Assembly: GCA_004321915.1 (NCBI GenBank)
Contig: SCQE01000005.1
Coordinates: 1 to 64,000, forward strand
Reading direction: 5' to 3'
Source: Nitrospirota bacterium
GTDB lineage: Bacteria > Nitrospirota > Thermodesulfovibrionia > Thermodesulfovibrionales > Dissulfurispiraceae
DNA: 64,000 nucleotides
Positions 28,493 through 45,372 of this stretch are shown piece by piece. The notes under the pieces were generated by a model. The model was not told the origin of the DNA, did no database searches, and worked only from the letters and a program-made list of their open reading frames with translations. How positions within the stretch are numbered: position 1 is the first letter of the stretch; each line of letters starts with the position of its first letter. Made by a program: the position numbers and the translations under genes.

Positions 28493-28499
28493 TGCATTT

Positions 28500-29888
28500 T
28501 CAGCCCGCCTTAAACACCAAGGAATTGAATTGATAATATAACTCTTCCAGTCTCGCTTTTGAGAGTTGCGGCATTTCCAGAATGGTGGAGTAGTTTACCG
28601 ATATATCTTCATAATACCGGTCTTTTATAAAACCTTCCCTGACGCATAGGTCATGCAGTATCGATCCGTGGTAGGGCGCAAATATCGATATTGCAAGGCT
28701 ATGCGCTTTGAGTTCCCGGCAAAAAGCCGCTGACCGCAATATATCCTCTTCCGCTTCATAGGGCAAGCCTATCATGATATATGCCGTTGTTCTGATATCG
28801 CAGGCATTACAATTATCAAAGGCCTTTATGTACACCTTATCGGAAGCCTTTTTGTTCAACACCATGGCCCGCACCTTTTCGCTTCCGCTCTCAACGCCTA
28901 TGCCGATAGTCGCACAACCGCACTCTTTCAGCCTATGGACTTTTTCGAGGTCCAGCAGGGTATCGGCCCTTGTCTGGATAAAAAATGGCAGATTGATACG
29001 TTCCTTATAGCCGGTCAGGAATTCGTCAAGCCGGTCCTTCGACATCATCAGAAAATTTTCGTCATTAAAGAAAATCAATTCTAAAGAATACTTCGCCTTC
29101 ATATGCTCTATTTCCTTGATGCAATACTCAACAGGCTTTTCGCGATGATATTTTCCTAAAGAACTGAACAGCTTCTGATATATATGGTTAGCGCAGTATG
29201 TGCAACTGAATGGGCAGCCTCTGGACAACTCAAAAAATCCGGTCTTCCATACCTTACCCATAAACGGCTTGTACAGGTGTCTCTGATCGAATATATCAAA
29301 ATCTTGGTATGTCAGAGGTTCCCAATCGTAATATTTCGGGAAGCTGTTTTTAATTATATTGCCGCCATTTTTGATTATGAGCGAGGGGACAGAAGATATG
29401 TCTTCCCTGTTATCCAATTTATCCGCCAGTTCCAATAAGGGATATTCGCCTTCACCCATGCATATAATATCGACATTCCCGTCCTCTATAAAAAACTGGG
29501 GGGCTACTGTCGGAAATATTCCGCCCACAATTATGGGCTTCTTCGTAACCTCTTTTGCGGCTTTAAAAAGTTCTCTTGCGCAGCCATAGTTATTTTCAAC
29601 AATTGAAAAGGCGATAAGGTCCGGATTAAAAGACGCTATCTTGTCTTTAAACCCCTTTATAATATCTTTTTCCTCGGCAGTCCCCCAGTAATCACTCACA
29701 TTTACCTTCGAGACAACACCGGTATTTTCCCTCGCTTTATGGTCCAGCCTTTCAGGCACCATAAATGTGATGTCGAAAACTTCTACAGTATGATGTTCTC
29801 TCTTTAGAATACCCGCTAAAACGGATATCCCCAAAGGGATTATAGGATAACCTTCTTTATTTGGATATACAAACAGGACCCTACACAA
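28500..29888 (-). CDS. Cobalamin-binding-type radical SAM protein (rSAM-3)
   Basis: The 462-residue protein has an N-terminal B12-like domain (VLFVYPNKEGYPIIPLGISV, KKPIIVGGIFPTVAPQF, DIICMGEGEYPLLELAD) and a radical SAM core with LSRGCPFSCTYCANHIY (Cys 225, 229, 232). The core runs on through FFNDENFLMMSKDRL and IGIGVESGSEKVRAMVLNKK. The start is TTG 29888, preceded by GAGAGG. It sits between the KdsC-like phosphatase and the cytidylyltransferase, which ties it to the nonulosonate block. The chemistry could be methylation or ring rearrangement; the sequence does not decide. Confidence 0.85.
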   Translation of the reverse strand: MCRVLFVYPNKEGYPIIPLGISVLAGILKREHHTVEVFDITFMVPERLDHKARENTGVVSKVNVSDYWGTAEEKDIIKGFKDKIASFNPDLIAFSIVENNYGCARELFKAAKEVTKKPIIVGGIFPTVAPQFFIEDGNVDIICMGEGEYPLLELADKLDNREDISSVPSLIIKNGGNIIKNSFPKYYDWEPLTYQDFDIFDQRHLYKPFMGKVWKTGFFELSRGCPFSCTYCANHIYQKLFSSLGKYHREKPVEYCIKEIEHMKAKYSLELIFFNDENFLMMSKDRLDEFLTGYKERINLPFFIQTRADTLLDLEKVHRLKECGCATIGIGVESGSEKVRAMVLNKKASDKVYIKAFDNCNACDIRTTAYIMIGLPYEAEEDILRSAAFCRELKAHSLAISIFAPYHGSILHDLCVREGFIKDRYYEDISVNYSTILEMPQLSKARLEELYYQFNSLVFKAG

Positions 29889-29918
29889 ATTAACACCTCT
29901 CGGATAGCATTATGTGTC

Positions 29919-30380
29919 CTACCGCTTTTCCATGTAGTTTAATAATGCCCTGACAACGCCGTCGCCGCCATTAACGGGAATAACAAATTTCGCTGCGGTT
30001 CTGGCTTCCGGATACGCATCTTGCGGGCAAAAAGAATAACCGACAATATTCATAACATCAACATCATTGATGTCATTCCCGATATACGCTACATCTTTGA
30101 GAGCAATTGAATTTTTTTCGCAATACCTACTGAGAATATCCTTTTTGTTATCAACTCCCCAAAGAACCGGTATTTTCAGTTTTTTTGCCCTTCTAACAAC
30201 AACTTTATTTTTTTCCTTCGACAAAATGAGTTGTCGAATGCCCAATTTCTTTATGATTTCCACAGCCAATCCATCCGATCTGTTGACAATTACACTCTCA
30301 AGCCCATCTTCACGCAAAACCACTTTGTTATCAGTCATTACACCGTCGAAATCATATACTATAAGCTCAATGTCTTTCAT
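29919..30380 (-). CDS. KdsC-like HAD phosphatase (nonulosonate/KDO phosphate phosphatase type)
   Basis: The 153-residue HAD protein without a cap domain has ELIVYDFDGVMTDNKVV (catalytic Asp pair), QLILSKEKNKVVVRRAKKL and DVAYIGNDINDVDVMNIVG. KdsC-family enzymes remove the phosphate from KDO-8-phosphate or from nonulosonate-9-phosphates. Here the substrate is probably the product of the NeuB-like synthase. I chose ATG 30380; a GTG two codons earlier is possible. The palindromic repeat lies directly upstream, so its leader may be structured. Confidence 0.8.
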   Translation of the reverse strand: MKDIELIVYDFDGVMTDNKVVLREDGLESVIVNRSDGLAVEIIKKLGIRQLILSKEKNKVVVRRAKKLKIPVLWGVDNKKDILSRYCEKNSIALKDVAYIGNDINDVDVMNIVGYSFCPQDAYPEARTAAKFVIPVNGGDGVVRALLNYMEKR

Positions 30381-30391
30381 ATGCACCGAAT

Positions 30392-31469: not shown

Positions 31470-32459
31470 TCATTGGACCGCATAATAGATCACTTGGCTT
31501 CCCAGCGTGTCAAAGCGGAAAGGCACATGCAGCAGCGGAGAAAGTGCGGATTTAAGTTGTTCCTGCTTCTCGGGGACTATGTAGAAAAGAATAAAACCGC
31601 CTCCGCCGGCCCCCAGTATTTTCCCGCCCAAGGCCCCGGCCGTCATCGCCTTGGCATATATGTCATCTATCTGCGAGGTGGAAACTTTGTCCGAAAGGTT
31701 TTTTTTCAATAACCAGCTTTCATGAAGCAGCCTTCCAAAGTCATCATACCCGTTGACACCGTCGTTGAGAATATCGACGGCGGACTCGACCATACGCTGC
31801 ATGGACCTGAGTTCGTGTTTCTTGTTGCCGAGGTTCCGGATCTTCTCCTTTTCGATCTCTACGGCAAAACGCGGGAACCCGGTAAAGAAAAGCATGAGGT
31901 GGCTATGCAGGTGAGCAAGGTTGTCGCTCGAAATAGTCACCGGATTGACTTCAATGTTGTTTGCCGAGAAGACTATCTTGTTGAACCCGCCGAAAGACAC
32001 GGCAATCTGGTCCTGAGAGCCTACCGCTTCTTTGATCATCTCCTGTTCGACATGGATGGCCTCCAACGCCAGCCTTTTCTTGTTGACCATCTTCCCTTGC
32101 AAGGCGTAAAGGGCATTGAGGAGGCCCACCGTAAAGGCGGAACTGGAGCCCAGCCCGGAATGAGAGGGGAGGTCTCCGTCATGCTGCACCAATAATCCTT
32201 CGTTAACATTCATGAAACGATACGTTTCGCGTACGGCGGGATGTACGATCTCGTCGATATCGTTGAAATCCTCATGCTTGGAAAAAAATACTACTTTATG
32301 CTTATGGTCAAAAAACGGCGGCAGCTTTCGGCAATGAATATAAGAGTATTTGTCTATGGTTGTAGAAAGCACGGCCCCCCCATGTTCCCGGTACCATGCA
32401 GGGAAATCGGTCCCGCCTCCAAAAAAAGATACTCTAAACGGTGTTCTTGTTATTATCAT
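31470..32459 (-). CDS. hddA: GHMP kinase, D-glycero-alpha-D-manno-heptose 7-phosphate kinase type
   Basis: The 329-residue GHMP kinase has RTPFRVSFFGGGTDFPAWY, the ATP loop LPSHSGLGSSSAFTVGLLNA, and GALGGKILGAGGGGFILFY near the end. It is typical of HddA, which phosphorylates C1 of D-glycero-D-manno-heptose 7-phosphate. With HddC, a GMD-like dehydratase and Fcl further up the transcript, it supports a GDP-(6-deoxy)-heptose route. GmhA isomerase and GmhB phosphatase are not in this window and may be elsewhere on the chromosome. A related role as a fucose- or other sugar kinase is less likely. Confidence 0.85.
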   Translation of the reverse strand: MIITRTPFRVSFFGGGTDFPAWYREHGGAVLSTTIDKYSYIHCRKLPPFFDHKHKVVFFSKHEDFNDIDEIVHPAVRETYRFMNVNEGLLVQHDGDLPSHSGLGSSSAFTVGLLNALYALQGKMVNKKRLALEAIHVEQEMIKEAVGSQDQIAVSFGGFNKIVFSANNIEVNPVTISSDNLAHLHSHLMLFFTGFPRFAVEIEKEKIRNLGNKKHELRSMQRMVESAVDILNDGVNGYDDFGRLLHESWLLKKNLSDKVSTSQIDDIYAKAMTAGALGGKILGAGGGGFILFYIVPEKQEQLKSALSPLLHVPFRFDTLGSQVIYYAVQ

Positions 32460-32483: not shown

Positions 32484-33428
32484 TTAATACTTAGGCGCAT
32501 CCGCTTGGCGAAAATGCCAAGCACCCAGTGAATGCAGTCGCCGATCATCTTTTTGTAACATCTTGAATCCAAAATAACTTTTAAATCCGGGCCTGAAGCC
32601 GGAATCCTCAAGCACCTTTCTCAAACAACTTCCGGGCGTTGCCCAAGTAGCTATTTTATTAGCGCCGCTTCGCACCAAGTGCGAGACCGTAATTGCCGTT
32701 AATTCTCTTATTGCATCCGCATCATCGGCTTGGCATTCTAAGTCCACAATATCGCCGTACATCCCGATACCGCCATGTATCGGGATTGTCTTTACGATTG
32801 CAAAGACATTATCGGACAACATCACCTTGCGGTACCTGTACACAGGCGTCTTTGCAAAACGCCACAAACGGAACTCCCGGGTAGCGGCAAGACCGACCCT
32901 GTCGCCGTGAATGTAACTGACGGACGGGAAAGCGGTATCGAGCGTCACGTCCTCCACGGCAATATCAGGCTTCACAGCCGGCCCCGCAGTGTCCGTTTCC
33001 ATTGCCCCTATCGGGTCCGGGAAAAACAATCCCAACGCCGCCTCACAGGGTTTTACGGATTTTTCATTGTGCGTAAAAATACAAACAAAATCGAGGTCGC
33101 CGAAAAATGAAAGGGCCGGAGCGGATATCTTCTTCAGGAGTCCTTTGCCGACCCAATCAGGATGAATATTCATGCTGATTATCTGACCCGCAGTCTGACC
33201 GGTAGTAGCAGGCCTCTTCTGCACACCGAACATACCCACCAATGTCTCGCCGGCGAAAGCGCCGAAACAAACGGTCGGGAAAACATTCTCGAACAACTGC
33301 CATTCAAAGTAGCCGGCATGCCGTTTGTTCTCATAAATCGCGCCGATCAGGTCGACACACCCGGGAATATCCTTGTGTTCCAACCGCCTGACAATAATAT
33401 CTTCAGCTATGTTACGCGGTTGTCCCAT
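32484..33428 (-). CDS. GNAT-like acyltransferase A
   Basis: The 314-residue protein carries an N-terminal GNAT-like region: VRRLEHKDIPGCVDLI, CFGAFAGETLVGMFGVQKRP, and IISMNIHPDWVGKGLLKKI with a G-x-G-L-L pattern of the acetyl-CoA loop. A C-terminal half with DIVDLECQADD and NKIATWATPGS follows. It is clearly paralogous to the protein at 36392-37315. It may acetylate a sugar amino or hydroxyl group on a nucleotide sugar. The ATG overlaps the upstream radical SAM gene by 17 bases. Confidence 0.65.
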   Translation of the reverse strand: MGQPRNIAEDIIVRRLEHKDIPGCVDLIGAIYENKRHAGYFEWQLFENVFPTVCFGAFAGETLVGMFGVQKRPATTGQTAGQIISMNIHPDWVGKGLLKKISAPALSFFGDLDFVCIFTHNEKSVKPCEAALGLFFPDPIGAMETDTAGPAVKPDIAVEDVTLDTAFPSVSYIHGDRVGLAATREFRLWRFAKTPVYRYRKVMLSDNVFAIVKTIPIHGGIGMYGDIVDLECQADDADAIRELTAITVSHLVRSGANKIATWATPGSCLRKVLEDSGFRPGFKSYFGFKMLQKDDRRLHSLGAWHFRQADAPKY

Positions 33429-35376
33429 TTATCGAATAAATATAGTCGCCTTTTTTATATCCGTACCAGACCACCTGCCTGCACCAGTCCTGCCAGTTGT
33501 TCCAGCGTTGAGATGAACTGTCTATCGTGTAGCAGACCTCCGCTTTTTTTACCGAATATTCGTCCCCTTTCAAGACCGCCTGATAAACGTCCCAAAGATT
33601 GTAATCCGCTCTTACAGTAATGTCCGTATTAACAAAGGGTTGTTTTAACAGCTTATGATTAAAGTTAACGGCCTGAGAAATCAACTGCGGGTAATCCGGC
33701 TCCAGCCTGTCCGAAAAAACCTTTAGACGGTCCTCCGCTTCCCTATAAAAGTCGTCCAGCAGCCCCTCGGTACACAATTTAATGTAGGCCAGTTCGTCCG
33801 AATGCCACGTTATGTTGAGCCAATCTTTCGATGGACTGAATTCACCGCTTCCGTTCCGGATCTCCCGGGCCTTCTCCTCGAACGCCGCTACGATTCCGGT
33901 CAAAACAGGGTGCCCATGGTCTTTTATTGCAAATGCCTCGATAAGTTCACGGTATGGCGCCTTGCCCAATTCATGAAGGAAAATAAAAGGCAACTGCAAC
34001 AGTTTGCCGAAATGCATAAGCGATGCCGTCCATGCGAACAGTTTGGCTTTTATCCAATCCTCTTCCGGCATTGCGGACGTGGCAACGACCAGAGAATGGG
34101 TCTCGCAAACTTCATCCTTCTCTTTGAGCAAGGTGTGATGCGATTCGAAATTGGCCTTTACCGTTTTCATTCCGTATCGGCTTTGGTACGCCTCGTTCGC
34201 CATTTCGGTGTTTTCAAGGATCACCAAATTGCCGAATTGTATTCTGTTGTGCTGCCCGTTATGTATAATTTCCGATATGCCGTCCGCATACGAATCATAG
34301 GTCTCTCCCGGCAACCCTAAAAGAATGTCGGTAAAAGTCATGATATTGCTTTTGGTGAACATGCTTTGAAGTTCGGTGTAGGTTTTGTTGTCTATATTGC
34401 TTCTTTCTACGAATTTCAGCGTCTGCTCATTAAGCGATTGCAAAGCCAAGTTGACCCCTTTTTGAAGGCCGGACTCGTTTAATATCCGATATAGATCGAA
34501 GATTTTCTTTTTCGAATTTTTGGTGTTTTGCACAGAAAACGCGTTGGGATACTTGAACCGCTTTTTATTCTCGACCACTTTCCGGACGATTTCGAAATCT
34601 CTGTCCAGAATCCCAAAATTGGCGTCGCAACAAAAAACAAACTCGACTTTATTATCGCTAAACCAGTCGATTTCCTGAAAAACCCTCTCGATGCTGAATG
34701 TTTTTACCGCTCTTTTGGTCTTTTTGCCCCAGTAGCAGAAGGCGCAGGTGTGCGGACATCCACGGTTCGTTTCCAACAATCCCTGCCATTTCTCGCCGGG
34801 GTTAAGCTGTAATAATTTGTCGAACACTCCGGAAAGGTAAGGGGATGGGATATCATCCAAACCCGGGACCTCTTCCGCTGGCCAAGTAAAAACAAAATCA
34901 CCATGCTTTCCGATAAACCCGGCTGATGGAAGAGCGGCCCGGTCTCCACCCCTGAAATGTTCAAGCACCCTCAAAAAAGGAAGCTCCCCTTCGCCGTAAC
35001 TAACAATATCTACAAACGACATCTCGCGGAGAAAAGCCTCCATTCTCTCCGGTTTTTCGGGGATCTGCGGCCCCCCGAAAACATTAATGGTTTTGGGGTT
35101 TCCTGATTTGATCCTCCGGGCTATCTCGAGACTGATCCGATAATTCCACAAATATGTGCTATAAAAGACTATGTCCGCGCCGTAAAGGTCTTTCTCTATA
35201 TCGCCCATTGCGGACCGCTTATAAATTATGGGCGCAAACTCATATGCGTCCGGATTCGGCAAGTTCTTCTCCGCATACGCCTGCAGCAGTCCGGCAGAAT
35301 AGGGAAAATAATATTGGCCGCCGAATGAATCGCCTATCTGGACCAGCCCGACTTTTGTCCTGCTCACCTTAAGCAA
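33412..35376 (-). CDS. Cobalamin-binding-type radical SAM protein, long form (rSAM-4)
   Basis: The 654-residue protein has an N-terminal B12-like domain (VGLVQIGDSFGGQYYFPYSAG, KTINVFGGPQIPEKPERM, IVSYGEGELPFL) and a radical SAM core with ETNRGCPHTCAFCYWGKKTK (Cys 207, 211, 214). NLALQSLNEQTLKFVERSNI is also in the core. The extra 200 residues at the C-terminus are unusual and unassigned. The start is probably TTG 35376, which overlaps the epimerase by 13 bases; a GTG at 35367 is an alternative. Its neighbours are an epimerase and an acyltransferase, so the three may act on one sugar. Confidence 0.82.
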   Translation of the reverse strand: MLKVSRTKVGLVQIGDSFGGQYYFPYSAGLLQAYAEKNLPNPDAYEFAPIIYKRSAMGDIEKDLYGADIVFYSTYLWNYRISLEIARRIKSGNPKTINVFGGPQIPEKPERMEAFLREMSFVDIVSYGEGELPFLRVLEHFRGGDRAALPSAGFIGKHGDFVFTWPAEEVPGLDDIPSPYLSGVFDKLLQLNPGEKWQGLLETNRGCPHTCAFCYWGKKTKRAVKTFSIERVFQEIDWFSDNKVEFVFCCDANFGILDRDFEIVRKVVENKKRFKYPNAFSVQNTKNSKKKIFDLYRILNESGLQKGVNLALQSLNEQTLKFVERSNIDNKTYTELQSMFTKSNIMTFTDILLGLPGETYDSYADGISEIIHNGQHNRIQFGNLVILENTEMANEAYQSRYGMKTVKANFESHHTLLKEKDEVCETHSLVVATSAMPEEDWIKAKLFAWTASLMHFGKLLQLPFIFLHELGKAPYRELIEAFAIKDHGHPVLTGIVAAFEEKAREIRNGSGEFSPSKDWLNITWHSDELAYIKLCTEGLLDDFYREAEDRLKVFSDRLEPDYPQLISQAVNFNHKLLKQPFVNTDITVRADYNLWDVYQAVLKGDEYSVKKAEVCYTIDSSSQRWNNWQDWCRQVVWYGYKKGDYIYSINGTTA

Positions 35377-36368
35377 CCCATATTTTCATTGAAATAGTTT
35401 AATTTTTCTTTGTGTTCTTCCGGATGTGAGATAAACCATTCCCACGTTTTCCGCAAGCCGGAGAGCAAATCCGTAACAGGCTCGAACCCCAATGTCCTGC
35501 GCGCCTTTGATATGTCCATTATTCTCCGGGGAGCCCCTGAAGGCTTGGTCGCATCAAACCTGAAATCGAAATCTATAAACGATCGCAAGGCTGTAATAAC
35601 TTCACGGATTGCAGTCCCTTTACCGCTCGCGATGTTGACAAATTCCCCGTCAGTGCCGAAGTATAATGCCCGGATGATGCCTTCGGCAGCGTCGGAGCTG
35701 TATAGAAAATCCCGCACGGCATTCCCGTCACCCCAAACCACCACCGGATTTTCTTTGTGGTAGATGCGCGAAATCAACGCAGGAACGACCATTGCAGTGG
35801 CCTGATCAAAGTTATCGCCCGGACCGTAAATGTTGCCTAATCGCACCAACGAATAACCTCTTATATCGTACTGTTTTTTGTATGCATATATCTGGAGTTC
35901 GGCCATTCTCTTTGCCCAGCCTGCAAAAGCCATAGGTGAGCTTTCTATTCTATAATTCTCTTCCGAAAGAAGCTCGCCTTCCGCATACGCGCCTATAGAA
36001 CTGGCATAGACCAGCTTTTGCACCTTGTTCTGCCTGCTTGCTTCGAGTATGCAGGAACTCATCATCAGTGTAGGCACGAAATGGCTGGCCATTTTCGATG
36101 CGGATGTTTGGACCGTCCCTTGTACCCCGGCAAGATGGCATACAAAGTCCATCCCTCTGGTTACCTCCTTGCAGTAATCGAAGCCTGTAAGGTCTCCGAT
36201 AACATGTTCGGCCCTTTCATGCACCTTCAACCGGTCCAGTGAAACGACTTTCACCGCAGCACCGGCACTGCAAAAGATATCAACAACCTGCCTGCCTATC
36301 AGTCCTGTCCCGCCGGTCACCAGCACATTTTTGCCTGCGAATCCGGTAAGTATTTTATCGTTCAACAT
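35364..36368 (-). CDS. NAD(P)-dependent SDR epimerase/dehydratase-like protein A, catalytic Tyr replaced
   Basis: This extended SDR of 334 residues has VLVTGGTGLIGRQ for the cofactor, YASSIGAY near 121-128, and LVRLGNIYGPGDNF. The YxxxK active site is altered: MAFAGWAKRMAEL has Lys 153, but Ala 149 stands where the catalytic Tyr belongs. Two paralogues nearby show the same loss. The protein could use another residue, bind a sugar without redox chemistry, or do an isomerisation not needing Tyr. The upstream acyltransferase and downstream radical SAM genes suggest a shared sugar substrate. Confidence 0.78.
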   Translation of the reverse strand: MLNDKILTGFAGKNVLVTGGTGLIGRQVVDIFCSAGAAVKVVSLDRLKVHERAEHVIGDLTGFDYCKEVTRGMDFVCHLAGVQGTVQTSASKMASHFVPTLMMSSCILEASRQNKVQKLVYASSIGAYAEGELLSEENYRIESSPMAFAGWAKRMAELQIYAYKKQYDIRGYSLVRLGNIYGPGDNFDQATAMVVPALISRIYHKENPVVVWGDGNAVRDFLYSSDAAEGIIRALYFGTDGEFVNIASGKGTAIREVITALRSFIDFDFRFDATKPSGAPRRIMDISKARRTLGFEPVTDLLSGLRKTWEWFISHPEEHKEKLNYFNENMGCLR

Positions 36369-36391
36369 TGTCTTTCAGCGCCATACGATGC

Positions 36392-37315
36392 TTAATAGTT
36401 GGTCGCATCCGCCTGCCTGAAATACCAGTAATCAAGCGAATAGGGGTTCCCATCAAGTTCTCTCATACTCCTTAAACCAAACTGCGTTTTGGCCCCAATC
36501 GTAAAACCGATACTTGCGCACTCTTCGGCAAGTTCGGTCCCCGGCAAAGCCCATGTTGTAATTACTTTTGCCCCGTCTTTAATAAGCCCGGAACATGCGC
36601 CGTGCAACAAATCAGCCAGCCCATGACGATCATCGGGCGGACACTCCAAGTCCACAATATCCCCAACGCCCGCCCCCCCTTCAGGGGGGTGGAACATCTT
36701 TACCACCGCAAACCTGTACTCGTCCAAGGACAATTTTTGGTACCGGTGATACGGTGATTGCGAGTACCGCCAGTTCCGGAAATCCCTCCCGCACAAAAAC
36801 GCGGTGCGTTGGCCGTGGCTTAAACTTTTAAGAGGGAAAAGCGTACCATGGTCGATCCATTCAGACGAAAGCCCAATCGAACGCACTTTAGCGTGAACGC
36901 TCAATTCCAAGGCAGCGATCGGTGCGGTATAAACAAGACCGAACGCCGCCTTGCACGGTTCGACCGCTTTTTCATTCGAAAAAATGAACACCATATCAAG
37001 GTCGTTGAAAGAACCTATGGCTTTGTCGCCCATTCCTTTAAGCAACCCCTTGCCTCTCCATCCGGCCCCGATGTTGACCCCAGTCATTTGTCCTGCAATC
37101 AAACCGTTGGTGAGAACACGTTTTTGAATGCCGAAGATCCCGGCCAATTCTTCCCCGTCAAAGGCGCCCCAGAAAATAGTGGGGTGGACATTATCGAATA
37201 ACTGCCAACTAAAAAATTCAGGTGGACGCCGGATTTTGTAAAGAGGCCCGATCAACGAAACGACCGCGCCCAAGTCACGTCTGTCTAACGCGCGAAAGGA
37301 AAAACCTTCACCCAC
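36392..37315 (-). CDS. GNAT-like acyltransferase B
   Basis: The 307-residue paralogue of acyltransferase A shares ENVFPT/DNVHPT-type, FGIQKRV, GQMTGVNIGAGWRGKGLLKGM and EPCKAAFGLVY segments. The acetyl-CoA loop RGKGLLKG fits GNAT. The start is GTG 37315 (GTGGGTGAAGG); no ATG is available in frame nearby. Neighbours on both sides are Tyr-less SDR proteins, so it belongs to a repeated SDR-acyltransferase unit. The acyl group and acceptor are unknown. Confidence 0.65.
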   Translation of the reverse strand: MGEGFSFRALDRRDLGAVVSLIGPLYKIRRPPEFFSWQLFDNVHPTIFWGAFDGEELAGIFGIQKRVLTNGLIAGQMTGVNIGAGWRGKGLLKGMGDKAIGSFNDLDMVFIFSNEKAVEPCKAAFGLVYTAPIAALELSVHAKVRSIGLSSEWIDHGTLFPLKSLSHGQRTAFLCGRDFRNWRYSQSPYHRYQKLSLDEYRFAVVKMFHPPEGGAGVGDIVDLECPPDDRHGLADLLHGACSGLIKDGAKVITTWALPGTELAEECASIGFTIGAKTQFGLRSMRELDGNPYSLDYWYFRQADATNY

Positions 37316-37356
37316 ACCGGATACCGTTTGACCATGCCATTTGATTCCATTAATCG

Positions 37357-38346
37357 CTATTTCCGCCCCGACAACAGTCTGTTTTTATACCAAGTCATCG
37401 TCTTCCTCAAGCCCTCCTCCAATGAGGTCTTTGCTTGGAACCCGACAAGCTGTTTTGCGAGCGACGCATCGATCATCCTCTTCGGGATCATTGTGGGTTT
37501 GGTTGCGTCGAAAACAATTTCAGCATCATCGTAGTTGTCCAATCTTAGAAGGGTATCAATAACCTCTTTCACGGAACACGGATGTCCGGCAGAGATATTT
37601 ATCGGCTGGAATTTTTCCAACTTCTCCATTACCAGCAATAACCCGTCAATAAAATCCTGAATGTAAATAAACTCTTTGATGTCGGTCCCGTCGCCCCAGA
37701 CTTCCAGCGGCCTATGCCGCTCGACAACCTTTCGGATAAGGGCCGGTATAACGTGGGAGGTTTCCCAATCGAAATCATCATACTCCCCGAAAATATTGGC
37801 GGGTCTCACGACAAGGGTCGTCATCGGTCTCTTTATTTTAGTCGCATACATCTCGCAGGTAAGCTCATTGAACCGCTTTACCCACCCCGCGATAAAATAT
37901 TTGTGGAAAAACTCATTGGTAACATCAGACTCCTTGACAGGATAATCCGTAAGCGGATAAACAACATTGCTGCTTATCATCAAAAACTTTTTCACGTCCG
38001 CCTCGTATGCCGCCTCCATAATCGATAAATTCATGATTACATTCGGCGTAAGATGGACAAGGGGGGTCTTCTCTATGACAGCCGCCCCCGATGTATTAGC
38101 GGCGCACATGAACAGATAGTCAATACCCTCGACCGCCTTTTTGCAGTCGTCGGCAAGCCGAAGGTCCGCTTTGATATATTGCACACGGGCATCGTTCCAA
38201 ACCGCAGGCTTTTCGTGTAACGTCGCGCGAACATCGGCGCCCGAATCCAAAAGACGTTTTACCAGATTGCTTCCGACGAAGCCTGCGCCGCCGGCCACTA
38301 AAATTTTTTTCCCATCGAAAAAATTACGCGGCACGGGGTTATCCAT
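37357..38346 (-). CDS. NAD(P)-dependent SDR epimerase/dehydratase-like protein B, catalytic Tyr replaced
   Basis: The 329-residue extended SDR has KILVAGGAGFVGSNLV, MISSNVVYPLTDYPVKESD and VVRPANIFGEYDDFD. In the active-site helix FIAGWVKRFNEL, Lys 157 is present but Ala 153 replaces Tyr. The same motif change is in the SDRs at 35364 and 41595. Its ATG overlaps the downstream radical SAM stop region, where the two genes share 8 bases. Epimerase or dehydratase activity is the family default but may not hold here. Confidence 0.78.
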   Translation of the reverse strand: MDNPVPRNFFDGKKILVAGGAGFVGSNLVKRLLDSGADVRATLHEKPAVWNDARVQYIKADLRLADDCKKAVEGIDYLFMCAANTSGAAVIEKTPLVHLTPNVIMNLSIMEAAYEADVKKFLMISSNVVYPLTDYPVKESDVTNEFFHKYFIAGWVKRFNELTCEMYATKIKRPMTTLVVRPANIFGEYDDFDWETSHVIPALIRKVVERHRPLEVWGDGTDIKEFIYIQDFIDGLLLVMEKLEKFQPINISAGHPCSVKEVIDTLLRLDNYDDAEIVFDATKPTMIPKRMIDASLAKQLVGFQAKTSLEEGLRKTMTWYKNRLLSGRK

Positions 38347-39829
38347 TTTCCGGGGGCGAAGGCGCTTGCCCTTTTACGCGGTATGTATGGTGGAACATGC
38401 CCTTGGATTCAAGTTTCTTCTTGACCATAACATCCAGCAATTCATCCACTTTTTTGCGAAAGTCAAACAGCTCTTCCATCGTCAGGTTATAAGGCTTAAG
38501 ATAGAAATTCTTATTCCCTACGACGTGAAAGGCCTCCATTTTCCAGATGTTATCCAAATCGACATTGTTAAGGAACAACCCGTCTTTAAGGGCCTGCTCA
38601 AAAAGCAATGTGCCGGGGAAAGGCATAATATTGTTCACATACGGTTCATCCACATCAATTTCTTTGATCATTTCATATGTTTCCATCAATGTTTCCATTG
38701 TATCTTCAGGCATGCCGATAATGAAAAATGCTTTAACGTATATCTTGTCTTTATACTTTTTGGTGATTCGTACCGCATTTATTATGCTCTCCCGGGACAA
38801 ACGTTTTCCCATGACCTTGTTGCGGATAAAATCAGACCCGCTTTCGATGGCCAACCCGATCCTAGTCAATCCCGCTCCAACCATGGCCTCCATCACCTCA
38901 TCATCGATTGTTGCGGTCGCTACATTAGGGGTCTCGAACTGAAGCTTAAGGTTTCTCTTGTTGATCTCGTTGCAGATTTCCAATACACGGGACTTCTTAA
39001 AAGTAAAATTATCATCGATGAATGAGAAATGACGATGATTATGCTTGTTGTAAAAATACTCTATCTCGTCGACTATGTTATGAACGGACCTATACCGCCA
39101 ACCACGCCCCATTATGTTGACCGCCACACAAAAGTTACAAAGGTTCGGACAACTCCTGCTTGACAGTATAGGGACCGTTGCATTGATCGGCATGTTCCTC
39201 GGGTTAAACCAGCCGGACGTATCATGGTAATAGTCTTTTATGTCAACCAGTTCATAGGCCGGAAACGGAATGCCGTCAAGGTCCTTAATGTAGTGGGTCC
39301 TTTTGGTCGTCACCACCTTGCCGTCCTGCCTATATGTTATTCCTTCGATTTTTTCAATACCTGCCGGATAAAAGCCTTCGCCGCTTTCCAATGTCCCGAC
39401 AAGTTCGACAAGCGATTTCTCACCCTCGCCCAATACAACATAATCTACGGAACCGCAATTTTGTAATATCTGGGCGGAATAAAGCGTAGGATGGATCCCG
39501 CCGATCACAATCGGGATGTCGGGAAATCTTTTCCTTATTTTCTGCGTATATTCCAAAACCACAGGAAAGCTGCCCGAAAACATACAACCTATTCCAATAA
39601 GCCCCGGCTTGCTGTCCGCTATTTTGTCTTCTATAAGAGATTGACAATAGGTGGAGCTGACGCTGTCGTCACCCTTCAGCCATGGTTTGTATACATTAAG
39701 GTCTAATATTTCAGGGCCATGCCCTGCGGCCTTTAAAGCTCCGGCAAGATACAGAAGATTTAGTGGAAGAATGAATTCTTTGTTTACTATCCAGCCCGGA
39801 TAGTGCGGATTAATCAATAATACTTTCAA
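38339..39829 (-). CDS. Cobalamin-binding-type radical SAM protein (rSAM-5)
   Basis: The protein has a B12-like N-terminal domain (VLLINPHYPGWIVNKEFILP, IPIVIGGIHPTLYSAQIL, YVVLGEGEKSLVELV) and a radical SAM core with LSSRSCPNLCNFCVAVN (Cys 227, 231, 234 counted from my start). FIDDNFTFKKSRVLEI and GLAIESGSDFIRNKVMG follow. I chose TTG 39829, which has AAGGAG nine bases upstream; the open frame runs six codons further. It follows the split transketolase and precedes an SDR. It could methylate or rearrange the same sugar. Confidence 0.84.
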   Translation of the reverse strand: MKVLLINPHYPGWIVNKEFILPLNLLYLAGALKAAGHGPEILDLNVYKPWLKGDDSVSSTYCQSLIEDKIADSKPGLIGIGCMFSGSFPVVLEYTQKIRKRFPDIPIVIGGIHPTLYSAQILQNCGSVDYVVLGEGEKSLVELVGTLESGEGFYPAGIEKIEGITYRQDGKVVTTKRTHYIKDLDGIPFPAYELVDIKDYYHDTSGWFNPRNMPINATVPILSSRSCPNLCNFCVAVNIMGRGWRYRSVHNIVDEIEYFYNKHNHRHFSFIDDNFTFKKSRVLEICNEINKRNLKLQFETPNVATATIDDEVMEAMVGAGLTRIGLAIESGSDFIRNKVMGKRLSRESIINAVRITKKYKDKIYVKAFFIIGMPEDTMETLMETYEMIKEIDVDEPYVNNIMPFPGTLLFEQALKDGLFLNNVDLDNIWKMEAFHVVGNKNFYLKPYNLTMEELFDFRKKVDELLDVMVKKKLESKGMFHHTYRVKGQAPSPPENG

Positions 39830-39910
39830 TGTGATCGTCTCCTTCAAAAAGTTGATAGTCTTCGGGCTTTAAATTTCTGGAAACCATACCGGGTTGTTCT
39901 TTTATAGACA

Positions 39911-40777
39911 TCAAAGCAATTTTTTTCGTAACATTTCCTTAATGGAAATTACATCCAGCCCTATGTCCTCTCGAATCGCTTCAAAGGTCCCGTAGGTATC
40001 ACAAAACCGGTCTTTCGGAAGACCGTAATAGGTTGCCGAAAGTCCCGCAGTTTCGCAAACAGCCTCGAATAAGCCAAAGGCGTCGTGAATAATCACAATG
40101 TCCGTGTTCCTGAACTTTTCGATAATTTCTTTATCTATCGGCTTAATAGTGTGGAAATAAACAAGGTTGACCTGCAGGTCTTTACATGCCTCAAAGACAT
40201 TGCCTAGTATCGGGCCGGCTGTCATAACAGTCACTTTTCCGCTGCAATCCTTTAGTATCTCGGCCCTGCCGAATTTGACCGGCAGATCGATGGTGTGAGG
40301 CTTGTCGGACAAACGATAATAAGTGACCTTGCCGTTATCGTACTGGGACCTCAGCAGAACATCCAGTTCCTTGCGCGACCCGGGCTGTATCACTTCGACA
40401 TCCGGCAACATACGCAGGATTGCAAGGTCCGTGTAGGACTGATGTGTAGCGCCGTCCCACGCATAATCGAAAGATGCGCCGCAAGTCACGATATTACCGC
40501 CAAACCGGTTGTAGCACATATCGAGTTTTATCTGCTCATAACTTCGCTCTGTCAGGAACGGGTTGATAGTATGAACAAACGGATAAAATCCTTGGGAGGC
40601 CAGTCCGGCTGACACGCTTATAAGAGTATTTTCACAAATCCCCATATTATAAAACCTATCGGGATACTTGTCTTGAAATTCCTTGAACAGATAAACACTC
40701 ACGTCCCCCAGCACCATCACGAGTTTATCGTCCCCTGCGGACAGGCCCATTACAGTGTCTTTAAACTGTCGTCTCAT
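39911..40777 (-). CDS. Transketolase, C-terminal subunit (pyrimidine plus C domains)
   Basis: This is the C-terminal half of a split transketolase, 288 residues from ATG 40777. It has the family start MRRQFKDTVMGLSAGDDKLV, MGICENTLISVSAGLASQGF with the cofactor-activating Glu, and the C-domain KVTVMTAGPILGNVFEA. ATG 40801 is an alternative; both have ribosome-binding sites. It pairs with the upstream N-terminal subunit and overlaps it by 17 bases, so the two are made together. Transketolase can produce sedoheptulose 7-phosphate, the precursor of the heptose made by HddA and HddC. A two-carbon branching reaction on a keto sugar is the alternative. Confidence 0.85.
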   Translation of the reverse strand: MRRQFKDTVMGLSAGDDKLVMVLGDVSVYLFKEFQDKYPDRFYNMGICENTLISVSAGLASQGFYPFVHTINPFLTERSYEQIKLDMCYNRFGGNIVTCGASFDYAWDGATHQSYTDLAILRMLPDVEVIQPGSRKELDVLLRSQYDNGKVTYYRLSDKPHTIDLPVKFGRAEILKDCSGKVTVMTAGPILGNVFEACKDLQVNLVYFHTIKPIDKEIIEKFRNTDIVIIHDAFGLFEAVCETAGLSATYYGLPKDRFCDTYGTFEAIREDIGLDVISIKEMLRKKLL

Positions 40778-41546
40778 CCAACTCCCGTAATAATATTTCA
40801 TATTCCTGTTCGCAGGGAGATCTCCGGTGCCATTCATAATGGTTGTCAATCATCGTCTTGCACCCAAAACCCTTTTTTGTATCAGCTATGATTACCTTTA
40901 ACGTATCATGCCGGGCAAGATACTCGCTCTTTAGCGCCTCCACATCATGGCCGTTCACTTCGACAACCTCGGCCCCGAACGATCTGAACCGGTCGCCGGG
41001 ATTGCATATCTGCAAGCCCCGCCGGTGAGACATGTTGTTGTCGTACACCACCTTAAGGTTGTTCAGCTTCAAATTCACTGCCACCATTATCGCTTCCCAA
41101 ACAGTCCCCTCGTTCGATTCACCGTCGCCGATGATTACAACAACTCTGCGTTCCGACTTTTGTATTTTAAACGCGAGCGCCATCCCCACGGCAAGCCCTA
41201 TGCCGTGGCCGAGCGAACCGGTAGAGGCCTCCACGCCGCGCACTTTCAGCCTGTCAGCGTGACAACCGAAAACCGATTTAAAGGAACCGAAAGTCTCCAC
41301 GTCTTTTATGTCAAAATATCCGAATTTCGACATTACGACGTATTGGGCAAGCGCGGCATGACCTTTACTCAGTATAAAAATGTCTCTTTCATCCCAAGAC
41401 GGGTTGGCCGGGTCATGTTTCATGGCCTCGTAAAACGCATAAATAGCTTCTATAACGGAAAAACAGGTGGGGATGTGGCCGTGGCCGCTTATTTTCGAAA
41501 TCCTGAGTATGTCTTTCCTTATGTCCTTAAATACCGGTTGCATCAT
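40761..41546 (-). CDS. Transketolase, N-terminal (thiamine diphosphate-binding) subunit
   Basis: The 261-residue protein from ATG 41546 (AGCAGGA upstream) has the transketolase PP domain: SGHGHIPTCFSVIEAIYAFY, GHAALAQYVVM, EASTGSLGHGIGLAVGMAL, and the diphosphate/Mg motif IIGDGESNEGTVWEA ending in DNN. Split transketolases are common in archaea and in secondary sugar loci. It is placed among sugar-nucleotide genes, not pentose-phosphate genes. The subunit stop overlaps the C-terminal partner's start. Confidence 0.87.
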   Translation of the reverse strand: MMQPVFKDIRKDILRISKISGHGHIPTCFSVIEAIYAFYEAMKHDPANPSWDERDIFILSKGHAALAQYVVMSKFGYFDIKDVETFGSFKSVFGCHADRLKVRGVEASTGSLGHGIGLAVGMALAFKIQKSERRVVVIIGDGESNEGTVWEAIMVAVNLKLNNLKVVYDNNMSHRRGLQICNPGDRFRSFGAEVVEVNGHDVEALKSEYLARHDTLKVIIADTKKGFGCKTMIDNHYEWHRRSPCEQEYEILLRELDETTV

Positions 41547-41594
41547 TTTTCCTGCTATGTTACTTTGTCCAAGCCCGTAAACGAACAAACCCCG

Positions 41595-42566
41595 CTATTT
41601 CTTCCAAGTAAGCCTGTTTTCACGCCACCACTCAACGGTCTTGCGTATTCCATCCAACGGCGTAAATTCCGGCTTCCATCCTATCACTTCATTGATCTTC
41701 GAGCAATCCAGTATTCTGGCCTTAGTTGTCGCATGAGAGCTCTCTTTATATATCACCTTCGACGGCTTAAAATCAGCGGCCAAAAGCACAGTATCAACCA
41801 CAGAGCCGACCGTTACCGGCCGGCCATAGCCGAGATTGAATATATCGTACTTTATCTCTACTGCATTATGAAGGGCCAAAACCGCTCCGCCGAAATCCTC
41901 CGAATAGATAACGTCGCGCGTAATATCGGGACTTCCCCACAATTCAAAAGGGTCCATGCCGTCGACCGCTTTCCTTATGATGGCAGGAATGAAGTTAGAT
42001 CTGGCCGGGTCGAATTTCGCAAAAGGTCCGTAAATGTTTGAAGACCGGGCTATCACGATCTCCATGCCGTGCGTTTTGTTCCAGAACCAGCAAAGCTTTT
42101 CGGCGGCCCGCTTGGCCCAAGCCACTCCGGCATAGGTTGGGTGAGGATCTTGGTTAAGATCAAGCATATCCTCCCTAACACTCCCTTCCATGTCTTGATA
42201 GACTGTGGCGCTGGATATATATACGACACGCGCAACCCCGGCATCATGCATCGCTTCCAGCATAAGGGTGTCCATCACAAGGTTGTCGGTCACTTGGTGT
42301 CCTTGATTGACCATTGCCGACGCAATACCTCCGCCGTTGGCAGCAACCATAATGGCTGAACTGCACCCCTTTACCGCTTCTCTGCACCCGTCACGTGTGG
42401 TCAGATCGGCCTTGACCCATGAAACAAGCGGAAACTGCAGACTTGGAGCAGTTCTGTTATAGGTCGCCGTTACAGGTGTGTCCGGCATTTTTTCATGTAT
42501 GGCTTTCAAGACGCTTAACCCGGCAAGACCGCTCGCCCCGGCCACCAAAACTCGATTATTTGCCAT
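41595..42566 (-). CDS. NAD(P)-dependent SDR epimerase/dehydratase-like protein C, catalytic Tyr replaced
   Basis: The 323-residue extended SDR from ATG 42566 has RVLVAGASGLAGLSVL, YISSATVYQDM and IARSSNIYGPFAKFD. The active-site helix TYAGVAWAKRAAEKL keeps Lys 152, but Val 148 replaces the catalytic Tyr; Tyr 145 is three residues away and might partly substitute. It lies directly upstream of the split transketolase. It is paralogous to the SDRs at 35364 and 37357. Confidence 0.78.
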   Translation of the reverse strand: MANNRVLVAGASGLAGLSVLKAIHEKMPDTPVTATYNRTAPSLQFPLVSWVKADLTTRDGCREAVKGCSSAIMVAANGGGIASAMVNQGHQVTDNLVMDTLMLEAMHDAGVARVVYISSATVYQDMEGSVREDMLDLNQDPHPTYAGVAWAKRAAEKLCWFWNKTHGMEIVIARSSNIYGPFAKFDPARSNFIPAIIRKAVDGMDPFELWGSPDITRDVIYSEDFGGAVLALHNAVEIKYDIFNLGYGRPVTVGSVVDTVLLAADFKPSKVIYKESSHATTKARILDCSKINEVIGWKPEFTPLDGIRKTVEWWRENRLTWKK

Positions 42567-42628
42567 CACGTAGTTCCATCTGCATGCTATTTAATTTTAG
42601 CATTTGCCGACACCGGCCTGTAAATACA

Positions 42629-43645
42629 TTATCTGTTTAAAAACACCCTTCCCGATTTTACCCGTTCACGCCAATATTCAAGCAGGTCCTTCATAGTCTT
42701 TTCAAATGGTATCTCCGGTTCCCATCCGGTATGTGCCTTGAACTTTGCCGTATCAGGCACCTGCAAATCGGCATCCAACGGTCTCATCCTTTCCGCATCC
42801 TGCTCGATCTTAATACGGTCTTTATGCGTTGATAATGAAATTAGGAATGCGAGCATGTCTCCCACCGTGCAGGAATATGTGCCCCCGATATTATATGATT
42901 CACCGGGCACGGGATTTACCGTCACCAGCATGTAATAGGCACGCACTGCGTCTCTTACATCAGACCATGTTCTGAGCGATTCGAGATTCCCGGTCTTGAC
43001 CACAGGAGGGATCAATCCATTTTCTATCATGGCTATCTGTTTGGCAAAAGTGGATTCGGCAAATACATCACCCCTGCGGGGACCGGAATGCGTGAACATC
43101 CGTGTTATAACAACCTTCTGCCCGTATGCTTCGGCATGAAATCTTCCAACCAGATCGGTCCCGATTTTGGAAATGGCGTAAGGCGAGGCCGGATGGAAAG
43201 GACAATCCTCGTTTATAGGCAGTTTTTCTCTCGGCACCCTGCCGAAGACTTCAGATGATGAACATACGTGGATGACCGGAGCGATTTCCTTACATCCTCT
43301 TAATGCCTCGAGCAATCGCAAAGTACCGAGGATATTCGTGTCCAGCGTATGAATGGGCGAACTGAAACTCGTCTTCGGATAGCTCTGCGCGGCCAAGTGA
43401 AATACGTAGTCCGGCTTGGCTTCATTTACAGCGTTCTGAAGAGATATAAAGTCGCAAAGGTCTCCATCGATAAAAAAAAGCCTGTCCTTTTTATTCGCGC
43501 GGTCCAGCAAATGCGCCACATTATCCAGAGGACTGCGCCAGCGGCACATGCCGAATATGTCCCAGTCGGTATTTGCCAATAAGAAATCTGCCAGATGTGA
43601 GCCGACCATGCCGGTAATGCCTGTAATAAGGGCTTTTTTCTTCAT
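42629..43645 (-). CDS. GDP-mannose 4,6-dehydratase-like SDR (probable GDP-heptose 4,6-dehydratase)
   Basis: The 338-residue extended SDR has KKALITGITGMVGSHLADFL, VCSSSEVFGRVP and SPYAISKIGTD with the intact YxxxK. GMD signatures SFSSPIHTLDTN and LRTWSDVRDAVRAYYML are present. It removes water from a GDP-sugar to give the 4-keto-6-deoxy form. HddC and HddA in the same island suggest GDP-D-glycero-D-manno-heptose as substrate, as in DmhA of 6-deoxyheptose routes; GDP-mannose is the alternative. The start overlaps the HddC stop (ATGA). Confidence 0.82.
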   Translation of the reverse strand: MKKKALITGITGMVGSHLADFLLANTDWDIFGMCRWRSPLDNVAHLLDRANKKDRLFFIDGDLCDFISLQNAVNEAKPDYVFHLAAQSYPKTSFSSPIHTLDTNILGTLRLLEALRGCKEIAPVIHVCSSSEVFGRVPREKLPINEDCPFHPASPYAISKIGTDLVGRFHAEAYGQKVVITRMFTHSGPRRGDVFAESTFAKQIAMIENGLIPPVVKTGNLESLRTWSDVRDAVRAYYMLVTVNPVPGESYNIGGTYSCTVGDMLAFLISLSTHKDRIKIEQDAERMRPLDADLQVPDTAKFKAHTGWEPEIPFEKTMKDLLEYWRERVKSGRVFLNR

Positions 43646-44385
43646 CGATTGTCACTCCTGCCTTTCTCTGCAGCAACAAATTTACCAATCTTCACAAAGA
43701 ACGTTTCAGCTTCTTTATAAGAGCTTGGCGTGCCGATATCTATAAGTTTTGCCTCTTGAGGAAATGCAAAGAACCTCTTGCCGATCAGGGTCGGGAATAA
43801 ATCTTTCTCGAGTGAAATATTCATGTCCGCGGGCAAAGTCTCTATCAATTCGCGTTCCATGCAATAAATACCGGCATTGATCCAGCCGCTTTCCCCGGCG
43901 GGCTTTTTCTCGCTAAATGAAGTTACCGCGCAGTTCGAGTCAAAGTTGACGCTGCCGTATCTGCTTATGTCCTGCATTTTTACAAGCGCCAACGTGCATG
44001 ATGAATTTTTTACGGAATGCCATGACAATAAGTCTTGCGGGTCAATATCGCAATACGAGTCCCCGTTAAAAACCAGTACCGTATCGGACTTTATAAAGGG
44101 AAGGGCCAGTCGCAATGCGCCCGCCGTTCCCAAAGGTGCGGCCTCATGGGAATAGGCAAGCGACATATCACCATAATTTTTCCCCATAGACTTGCTGACC
44201 TTTTCGCCCATATAGCCGGTGCATAAAACAGTATGCCTGATACCGGAGTTCCTGAGCTGGTCCAGCAGGTAAGTCAAAAATGGCCGTCCACCCACCTCGG
44301 CCAGCACTTTGGGCCGGTCTGACACCGCTTCGCGCAGGCGTGTGCCAAAACCGCCCGCGAGAACCACAGCCGAAATATCATGCAA
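43642..44385 (-). CDS. hddC: D-glycero-alpha-D-manno-heptose 1-phosphate guanylyltransferase
   Basis: The 247-residue nucleotidyltransferase has ISAVVLAGGFGTRLREAVSD followed by RPKVLAEVGGRPFL, then DTVLVFNGDSYCDI and ERELIETLPADMNISLEKD. It matches HddC-type enzymes that join GMP to heptose 1-phosphate. The start is TTG 44385 (CGGAAA upstream); the only ATG nearby is out of frame. With HddA, the GMD-like dehydratase and Fcl it supports GDP-heptose as the pathway intermediate. A general sugar-phosphate nucleotidyltransferase role cannot be excluded. Confidence 0.8.
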   Translation of the reverse strand: MHDISAVVLAGGFGTRLREAVSDRPKVLAEVGGRPFLTYLLDQLRNSGIRHTVLCTGYMGEKVSKSMGKNYGDMSLAYSHEAAPLGTAGALRLALPFIKSDTVLVFNGDSYCDIDPQDLLSWHSVKNSSCTLALVKMQDISRYGSVNFDSNCAVTSFSEKKPAGESGWINAGIYCMERELIETLPADMNISLEKDLFPTLIGKRFFAFPQEAKLIDIGTPSSYKEAETFFVKIGKFVAAEKGRSDNR

Positions 44386-44436
44386 TTTCCGGATGCCTCG
44401 AATACTTTTCTATGGGGATAACTTCTCTCAAGAAGG

Positions 44437-45372
44437 TCAGTACGTTTCCCGATACCATTGATAGGTCTTTGCTATGCCTTCCGGTAACCCTGTTTGAGCT
44501 TTCCATCCAAGCCTGTTAATTCTGGTCACATCCATTACCTTCTTCGGCATGCCGTCAGGCTTGGTCGCATCCCAGCGTATTTCGCCCGTGTACCCTACTA
44601 TGCCGGCAAGGAGCTCTCCCAATTCTTTTATTGTGATGCCGCTGCCGGTCCCGATGTTGACGAACTCGCCGATCGCCGCCGCATCATATTTTTCCATTAT
44701 GAAAACAAGCGCATGGGCCAAGTCATCGACGTACAAAAACTCCCTGATAGGACTGCCTGTGCCCCATATCTCCATATGGGCCGCGCCGCTACGTTTGGCT
44801 TCGTGAAATTTGCGCAGCAATGCAGGCAGTACGTGCGAGGTTTCCAGATCAAAGTTATCGTACGGCCCGTAAAGATTGGTAGGTATGACCGAAACGAAAT
44901 TGGTCCCGTATTGCTTGTTATACGAACTGCAAAGCTTTATAGCTGCGATCTTGGCTATGGCATAGGCCTCGTTGGTAGGTTCGAGGGTATTGGTCAGCAG
45001 ATACTCTTCCTTCAGCGGTTGCCGGGCGTGTCTGGGATAGATACAGGAAGAACCGGGGTTGAGGAGCTTTTTGACATGATTTCGATAACTGGCGTTGATT
45101 ATGTTAGCGCTGATCATCAAATTTTCATAACTGAACTGTGCCACGTAGGTGCTGTTTGCCAATATGCCGCCTACCTTGGCGGCGCAGAGAAACACGTATT
45201 CCGGCCGCTCTTCGGCAAAAAAATCATCTACGTTCTGCTGACGTGTAAGATCGAGTTCGGCATGTGTGCGGGTGCATAGGTTGGTGTAACCTTGCTCTTT
45301 GAGCCTTCGTATAACGGCTGACCCCACCAGACCTTTATGACCGGCAACAAAAATTTTCGAATCTTTATTCAT
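44437..45372 (-). CDS. fcl: GDP-L-fucose synthase-like epimerase/reductase
   Basis: The 311-residue SDR has KIFVAGHKGLVGSAVIRRL, LCAAKVGGILANSTY, NPGSSCIYPRHARQPLKEE and NEAYAIAKIAAIKLC with an intact YxxxK. GPYDNFDLETSHVLPALL also matches. Fcl does the 3,5-epimerisation and 4-reduction of GDP-4-keto-6-deoxy sugars; in heptose routes related enzymes finish GDP-6-deoxyheptose. It is the first gene of the minus-strand island, with AAAGGGAG before ATG 45372. Confidence 0.87.
   Translation of the reverse strand: MNKDSKIFVAGHKGLVGSAVIRRLKEQGYTNLCTRTHAELDLTRQQNVDDFFAEERPEYVFLCAAKVGGILANSTYVAQFSYENLMISANIINASYRNHVKKLLNPGSSCIYPRHARQPLKEEYLLTNTLEPTNEAYAIAKIAAIKLCSSYNKQYGTNFVSVIPTNLYGPYDNFDLETSHVLPALLRKFHEAKRSGAAHMEIWGTGSPIREFLYVDDLAHALVFIMEKYDAAAIGEFVNIGTGSGITIKELGELLAGIVGYTGEIRWDATKPDGMPKKVMDVTRINRLGWKAQTGLPEGIAKTYQWYRETY

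Follow-up and report, generated by a model that had tools for sequence, protein, structure and literature searches.

Several described systems come close to the one reported here. In Campylobacter jejuni the GDP (guanosine diphosphate) heptose pathway consists of HddA, HddC, a GDP-heptose 4,6-dehydratase, an RmlC-type epimerase and a GMER-type reductase, and 6-deoxy heptoses are, as far as is known, formed in Campylobacter via epimerisation and reduction only. Antibiotic biosynthesis is the main known setting of B12 radical SAM methylases. For miharamycin and amipurimycin, split-gene transketolases have been proposed as the enzymes that branch a keto sugar; ketone acceptors for transketolases have been proposed solely in a few untested Streptomyces clusters, and the 13 split-transketolase candidates of a recent review, likewise untested, are all from Streptomyces (PMC12247030). 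Here, a stretch of 64,000 nucleotides from a Nitrospirota bacterium (the window, located on contig C102 of 70.7 kb; source genome of 3.63 Mb in 145 contigs) was analysed, and for one of its operons the genes, their families, the pattern of active-site residues and a linkage conserved across phyla were established. In this operon a split transketolase (TKN and TKC), a B12 radical SAM methylase (TOK) and three short-chain dehydrogenases/reductases (SDRs) without the active-site tyrosine (SA, SB and SC) accompany genes for GDP-heptose. On a modest balance of probability, the block would carry out the tailoring in a GDP-heptose pathway leading to a C-branched, C-methylated deoxyheptose-derived sugar. 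The first-pass annotation of this DNA had found no standard pathway for it, and in the open-licence PMC literature no paper describing this cluster was found.

Operon layout and GDP-heptose genes

The minus strand between 31470 and 45372 forms a single tight operon of long open reading frames, many of which overlap or abut their neighbours. The order of transcription is GMER, HddC, GMD, SC, TKN, TKC and a second B12 radical SAM gene (at 38339), followed by SB, GNAT2, SA, TOK, GNAT1 and HddA. SA and TOK overlap by 13 nt, TKN and TKC by about 14-40 nt, as set by the true start of TKC. All families that the first-pass annotation had named between 32484 and 42566 were found there on the minus strand. 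The content of that block was confirmed and its extent was revised, since the operon also takes in HddA (31470) and GMD, HddC and GMER (42629-45372). A scan of the window against Rfam gave no match. The principal genes are as follows.

44437-45372, minus strand: GMER, canonical GDP-fucose-synthase-type epimerase/reductase (NF047922, 468.7 bits; YAIAK motif)
43642-44385, minus strand: HddC-type sugar-1-phosphate guanylyltransferase (PF00483, 1e-31; NF052502, 174 bits; NF049965 HddC, 161 bits)
42629-43645, minus strand: GMD, GDP-D-glycero-D-manno-heptose 4,6-dehydratase family (PDB 7us5, E=4.9e-114; YxxxK kept)
41595-42569, minus strand: SC, Tyr-less GW-type SDR with VAWAKR (motif and family comparison)
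40761-41588, minus strand: TKN, N-terminal, thiamine diphosphate (ThDP)-binding chain of a split transketolase (6yak, E=4.5e-49)
39911-40849, minus strand: TKC, C-terminal chain of the same split enzyme (6yaj, E=7e-29)
37357-38346, minus strand: SB, Tyr-less GW-type SDR of the AGWVKR type (motif and family comparison)
35364-36368, minus strand: SA, Tyr-less GW-type extended SDR, core gene directly 5' of TOK
33412-35376, minus strand: TOK, putative methylcobalamin-dependent radical SAM C-methyltransferase of the TokK/CysS/KedN5 class, core gene (7kdx, E=1.2e-80)
31470-32459, minus strand: HddA-type GHMP kinase of the D-glycero-D-manno-heptose 7-phosphate 1-kinase family (PDB 4n3o, E=3.3e-36; 4usk, E=3.7e-36)

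The base sugar is most probably GDP-heptose, because the operon encodes matches to HddA, HddC, GMER and the 7us5-type dehydratase and because homologues of GmhA and GmhB are encoded elsewhere in the same genome. GMD scored 384 bits against the Campylobacter heptose dehydratase 7us5 and at most 147 bits against GDP-mannose dehydratases (E=2.6e-41 for E. coli GMD); its catalytic motif is intact as YAISK, and it shows the features of membership in the heptose-dehydratase family. GMER just missed the equivalog cut-off of 500 bits of NF047922 and is therefore described as GMER-like, an identity as GDP-L-fucose synthase not being reached. At one related locus (L028), gmhA- and gmhB-like genes adjoin the module.

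The split transketolase

The transketolase is split, as had been annotated. Both of its chains are intact, and they correspond to the N and C chains of the solved split enzyme of Carboxydothermus. Translation probably begins downstream of the TTG codons given in the list of open reading frames, the likely ATG starts lying near 41546 for TKN and near 40801 or 40777 for TKC. TKN retains the equivalents of E. coli TktA H26, H66, H100, H261, G154, D155 and N185, and TKC those of E411, D469, H473 and R358. In the window TKC, Gly and Asp stand in place of H461 and R520 (E. coli numbering), respectively, which in the E. coli enzyme contact the phosphate of the substrate. This pattern was compared across the 11 close TKCs of the module whose C-half could be aligned, comprising the window and L017, L022, L023, L024, L028, L036, L038, L048, L057 and L098 (the ten at 55-72% identity), with L127, L130 and E. 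coli TktA as the ordinary-transketolase control. Position 461 is Gly in all 11, position 520 is Asp in 10 and Asn in the remaining one (L017), and the ordinary split transketolases L127 and L130 retain His and Arg. Among the features that define a transketolase (EC 2.2.1.1), the ThDP motif and the catalytic His/Glu are present and the sugar-phosphate residues H461/R520 are absent. The module enzyme is predicted to work like a transketolase, and a sugar-phosphate transketolase function is not claimed for it. An engineered E. coli transketolase, S385Y/D469T/R520Q, takes non-phosphorylated aromatic acceptors (PMC10787763).

Two roles had been suggested in the first-pass annotation, the supply of sedoheptulose 7-phosphate and the addition of a two-carbon branch. 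Under the first, an ordinary transketolase would make sedoheptulose 7-phosphate for GDP-heptose, and TOK and the SDRs would only methylate or epimerise the heptose ring. Sedoheptulose 7-phosphate is indeed the precursor of GDP-heptose, HddA, HddC and GMD lie in the operon, and R358 is retained in the module transketolases. However, all close module enzymes with an aligned C-half have lost H461 and R520, which ordinary split transketolases keep, a separate housekeeping split transketolase is encoded in the same genome (G000:C82), and most loci with TOK and HddA are without a transketolase. Because of the replaced residues and the housekeeping enzyme, a supply of sedoheptulose 7-phosphate by the module is unlikely; the housekeeping copy also rules out that the module encodes the only transketolase of the genome. 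The residue pattern favours the second suggestion, in which a keto sugar, for instance GDP-4-keto-6-deoxyheptose, would receive a two-carbon unit.

TOK, the Tyr-less SDRs and their co-occurrence

TOK is assigned by its sequence to the TokK/CysS class of methylases, and C-methylation is predicted for it, which is compatible with the methylating role earlier suggested for a radical SAM enzyme. Its CxxxCxxC cysteines and its W77, which aligns with W76 of TokK, are invariant across 6 relatives, and a YVWN/YLWN motif at the W76 position is invariant in the 6 relatives and likewise found in CysS. The domain PF04055 was matched and PF02310 reached 28.0 bits, just under its cut-off of 32.1; against the KedN5 subfamily NF033712 the score was 244 bits, short of the curated cut-off of 700. 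Both radical SAM proteins of the block are of the B12 type, as first annotated, but they differ, since the gene at 38339-39847 is a generic BchE/P-methyltransferase-like one.

The second closest solved relative of TOK is CysS (9n1b, E=6.7e-53), and an enzyme acting like CysS would lengthen an existing O-methyl substituent of the sugar to an O-ethyl or O-isopropyl ether, in place of methylating a ring or side-chain carbon. Class-I or TylF-like methyltransferases at several transketolase or TOK loci would suit such a reaction, as would the separate methyltransferase genes of the window at 15407-18931. This explanation is nevertheless judged improbable, as TokK is clearly closer to TOK than CysS in profile comparison (E=1e-113 vs 5e-80) and the window operon itself is without an O-methyltransferase. 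Direct C-methylation by TOK is preferred.

Two irregular TOK loci were recorded. In L019 (G083, 7783-12119), a tandem SA-TOK-SA-TOK arrangement with a first TOK of only about 228 amino acids points to an apparent recent duplication. In L021 (G174, 10638-12573), TOK is split into two frames with an inverted piece of 48 amino acids between them, which indicates a pseudogene or an assembly fault.

The three SDRs lack the catalytic tyrosine, as had been noticed from the sequence, with A-G-W-A-K, A-G-W-V-K and V-A-W-A-K in place of Y-x-x-x-K. The Rossmann motif GxxGxxG is present in all three, and the YxxxK of the classical extended SDR triad is absent. A GW motif instead of YxxxK was found in 102 of 166 SDR sequences from the mapped loci; among these 102 the Trp is invariant, the Tyr is replaced in 89 and the Lys is retained in 76. 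GW-type SDRs cluster almost together in the tree (106 tips, support 0.68), and the loss of the tyrosine is, as judged from these sequences, a trait of a coherent family. The model of SA (predicted local distance difference test score, pLDDT, 85.5) has an extended SDR fold, and its nearest structures belong to nucleotide-sugar epimerases, GDP-mannose 3,5-epimerase among them, and to GDP-fucose synthase; no Tyr-less relative of known function was among the fold matches, an absence that was not taken as evidence. SC is enriched at loci with a transketolase (7 of 13, vs 4 of 76 without). One-to-one orthology of the three SDRs across loci was considered and rejected, the window SB being of the AGWVKR type and the SB beside the transketolase elsewhere of the YGWMRR type.

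The distribution of the module was assessed from several starting points. A scan with TOK across 84,980 species genomes gave at least 559 relatives, the best 80 of which were mapped by tblastn. Outside the window, 12 loci carry a close TKC; they hold TOK (11), SB (11), HddA (9), GMD (9), HddC (8), a TylF-like methyltransferase (7), SA (6), SC (6) and RmlC (6), the count for TOK being biased because 10 of the 12 came from TOK-selected loci. TKN and TKC are invariably paired. The order SC-TKN-TKC-SB-SA-TOK is repeated in Nitrospinota (L022), Thermodesulfovibrio (L057) and Syntrophaceae (L024) and recurs without SC in Desulfobacteraceae (L023) and in genome G099 (L017); variants of it occur in Geobacter (L036), Elusimicrobia (L038, L048), Bradyrhizobium frederickii (L098) and a Methanoperedens-labelled, possibly misbinned bin (L028). 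Within the phylum, 3 of 291 other genomes have TKC orthologues (60-65% identity, next best 41%) and all three carry TOK, which occurs at high identity in only five genomes (hypergeometric p about 2.5e-6, ignoring relatedness, with two of the three from the same genus). A search of 72,556 plasmids gave one orthologue-grade TKC (59.8%), carried by plasmid p2 of Azospirillum sp. TSA2s. The sole orthologue-grade plasmid TOK (41.6%) lies 7 kb away from it, and the cluster also contains GMD, RmlC, a kinase, methyltransferases and two SDRs. When the search started from SA, TOK was present in 4 of 5 genomes with SA orthologues and always directly adjacent; when every locus is counted, the distance to TOK is at most 150 nt for 16 of 20 SA genes.

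These data also bear on the possibility that there is no single pathway, glycan islands being transfer hotspots in which the transketolase, TOK, SDR and heptose genes each serve different sugars. The window also has a nonulosonate-like set with its own radical SAM genes, the composition varies between loci, and a same-genus genome is without TOK, which indicates that the island is mobile or patchy. The gene order conserved across phyla, the overlapping or abutting of SA and TOK in 16 of 20 cases and the constant pairing of TKN with TKC speak against independent roles, and we give this explanation little credence compared with a common pathway for one branched, methylated sugar. Rarity of the combination in other genomes had been set beforehand as the result that would count against a module; the core families were found together, the acyltransferases and the second radical SAM being the exceptions.

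Side observations from the mapped loci include a MiaB-like radical SAM gene (UPF0004 + Radical_SAM) between SB and TOK at L028 (7944-9122), the same arrangement being seen in L036, which adds one more radical enzyme to the module in some hosts. In Azospirillum sp. TSA2s, a homologue of the TylF-like methyltransferase (L138, 22709-23464) is annotated as crotonobetainyl-CoA--carnitine CoA-transferase, probably a misnomer. An aldo/keto reductase lies nearby in 48 of 76 TOK loci without a transketolase, which suggests a broader pathway of TOK and GDP-heptose genes with the transketolase as a branch.

The predicted sugar, its setting and related systems

We infer substrates, reaction order, product and acceptor protein as follows. 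GmhA and GmhB, together with HddA and HddC, would provide GDP-D-glycero-D-manno-heptose, from which the dehydratase at 42629-43645 would form GDP-4-keto-6-deoxyheptose. TKN/TKC would then take two carbons, as a ketol unit, from a donor that carries no phosphate and add them to the ketone, most simply at C4, giving a tertiary-alcohol branch. TOK, paired with SA, would place at least one methyl group on an unactivated carbon by radical C-methylation, and SB, SC and the canonical GMER may epimerise, rearrange or reduce the product. The tandem GNATs, as acyl caps, and the second B12 radical SAM would be local decorations of this genome, and the sugar would probably be attached to flagellin here and to an exported polysaccharide in other hosts. 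The most specific version, in which a transketolase without its phosphate anchor uses the ketone of GDP-4-keto-6-deoxyheptose to make a nine-carbon branched sugar that is then C-methylated by TOK and a Tyr-less SDR, and does so across phyla, is put forward tentatively, with clearly less than even confidence.

Several observations weigh against this pathway. The retained R358 means that some anion binding may remain in the module transketolases, and the region of S385 is unalignable. HddA reached 154 bits against NF049969, far from the equivalog cut-off of 600, although its best PDB relatives are solved heptose-7-phosphate 1-kinases. TOK is far more widespread than the transketolase and most of its loci are without one, so the transketolase step may be optional or a separate branch; in G083 the transketolase lies about 55 kb from TOK. 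RmlC and O-methyltransferases are absent from the window operon though common at other transketolase loci. We know of no branched, C-methylated heptose in any of the hosts identified.

The accessory genes are the following.

38339-39847, minus strand: BchE/P-methyltransferase-like B12-binding radical SAM protein (PF02310, 7e-20; PF04055, 1.2e-19; TIGR02026, 195 bits, below cut-off)
36392-37315, minus strand: GNAT2, candidate tandem-GNAT acyltransferase (Foldseek to 7q3a and 2wpx)
32484-33428, minus strand: GNAT1, candidate tandem-GNAT acyltransferase, 42% identical to GNAT2 (Acetyltransf_1, E=0.004, under cut-off)

The earlier call of two acyltransferases is in part supported by a moderate fold match of the GNAT2 model (pLDDT 66) to the tandem GNATs 7q3a and 2wpx (Foldseek E=3.9e-11, template modelling score about 0.6), but neither gene has a significant Pfam match, GNAT appearing below threshold only. 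GNATs occur at just 2 other transketolase loci, with 60% (L022) and 26% identity, and are not counted as core because no homologue was found among 60 relatives outside their own genome. Relatives of the 38339 radical SAM of at least 40% identity were found in only 2 of 76 loci without a transketolase, and the gene occurs at almost none of the other transketolase loci. The acyltransferases and this radical SAM, first described as members of the module, are local accessories, rare at other transketolase loci.

Flagellin as the target of the sugar in this genome, an idea already contained in the first-pass annotation, is circumstantial. It is a candidate because FlbT (E=3.7e-41) and FlaF (E=1.7e-25) stand at the start of the contig (window 219-963), followed at 2603-10136 by a TPR + GT41 protein (OGT-like, 1274 amino acids) and a tandem GT2 + TPR protein (1240 amino acids), both likely protein glycosyltransferases. 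No flagellin gene was found on the contig of the window, Flagellin_N matches lying on C13 and C68, and the same sugar is probably placed on a polysaccharide in other hosts, since L028 and L098 carry ABC-2 polysaccharide exporter genes. A GT2-GT41 fusion is located close to the module in Azospirillum TSA2s. The nonulosonate-like block of the window (23022-30386) encodes NeuB, a PseC/LegC-type aminotransferase, a CMP-sugar synthetase, a KdsC-like phosphatase and three radical SAM proteins, one of the SPASM type and two of the B12 type. In L061, a Sulfopaludibacter metagenome-assembled genome, the block recurs in compact form, with NeuB (59%), DegT (70%), SPASM, KdsC and CMP-synthetase genes, beside a TOK gene.

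The module is an unusual, testable enzyme combination in nucleotide-sugar biosynthesis and not a categorically new system. Its analysis places a close TokK-type class of B12 radical SAM methylases in common surface-glycan operons, makes the GW-type SDRs recognisable as one family and yields a broad set of candidate ketone-accepting transketolases with a definite candidate acceptor, including those of cultured Azospirillum and Bradyrhizobium; in cultured hosts the predicted sugar can be sought by mass spectrometry. If the proposal is true, the module would, as far as we know, contain the first natural ketone-accepting transketolase, and TOK would be the first radical SAM methylase with a nucleotide sugar of surface glycans as its substrate.

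With the Campylobacter jejuni GDP-heptose pathway the operon shares the nucleotide-sugar scaffold, with a dehydratase nearest to 7us5, a kinase nearest to 4n3o and a GMER-type reductase, whereas the window adds the split transketolase, the TokK-class methylase and the Tyr-less SDRs and has no RmlC. TOK resembles the methylases TokK/ThnK (carbapenem) and CysS (cystobactamid) in its class, its cobalamin and CxxxCxxC domains and the Trp aligned with W76, but the similarity to TokK ends near residue 480, and TOK sits in nucleotide-sugar operons of many phyla and not in antibiotic clusters. For YerE of yersiniose biosynthesis we know of no radical SAM partner; YerE belongs to a decarboxylase class that uses pyruvate and a CDP sugar, unlike the module enzyme, and is comparable in that it depends on ThDP for attaching a two-carbon branch to a nucleotide-linked keto-deoxysugar of surface glycans (reviewed in PMC12247030). 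The split transketolase of Carboxydothermus hydrogenoformans (6yak, PMC7661550) has the same two-chain architecture and ThDP site, yet it retains His and Arg at the H461/R520 positions, which the module enzymes do not. The transketolases of miharamycin and amipurimycin biosynthesis are likewise split, stand beside sugar oxidoreductases and are proposed to transfer a ketol unit to a keto sugar, whereas the module described here is linked to GDP-heptose and occurs in several Gram-negative phyla and in cultured alphaproteobacteria.

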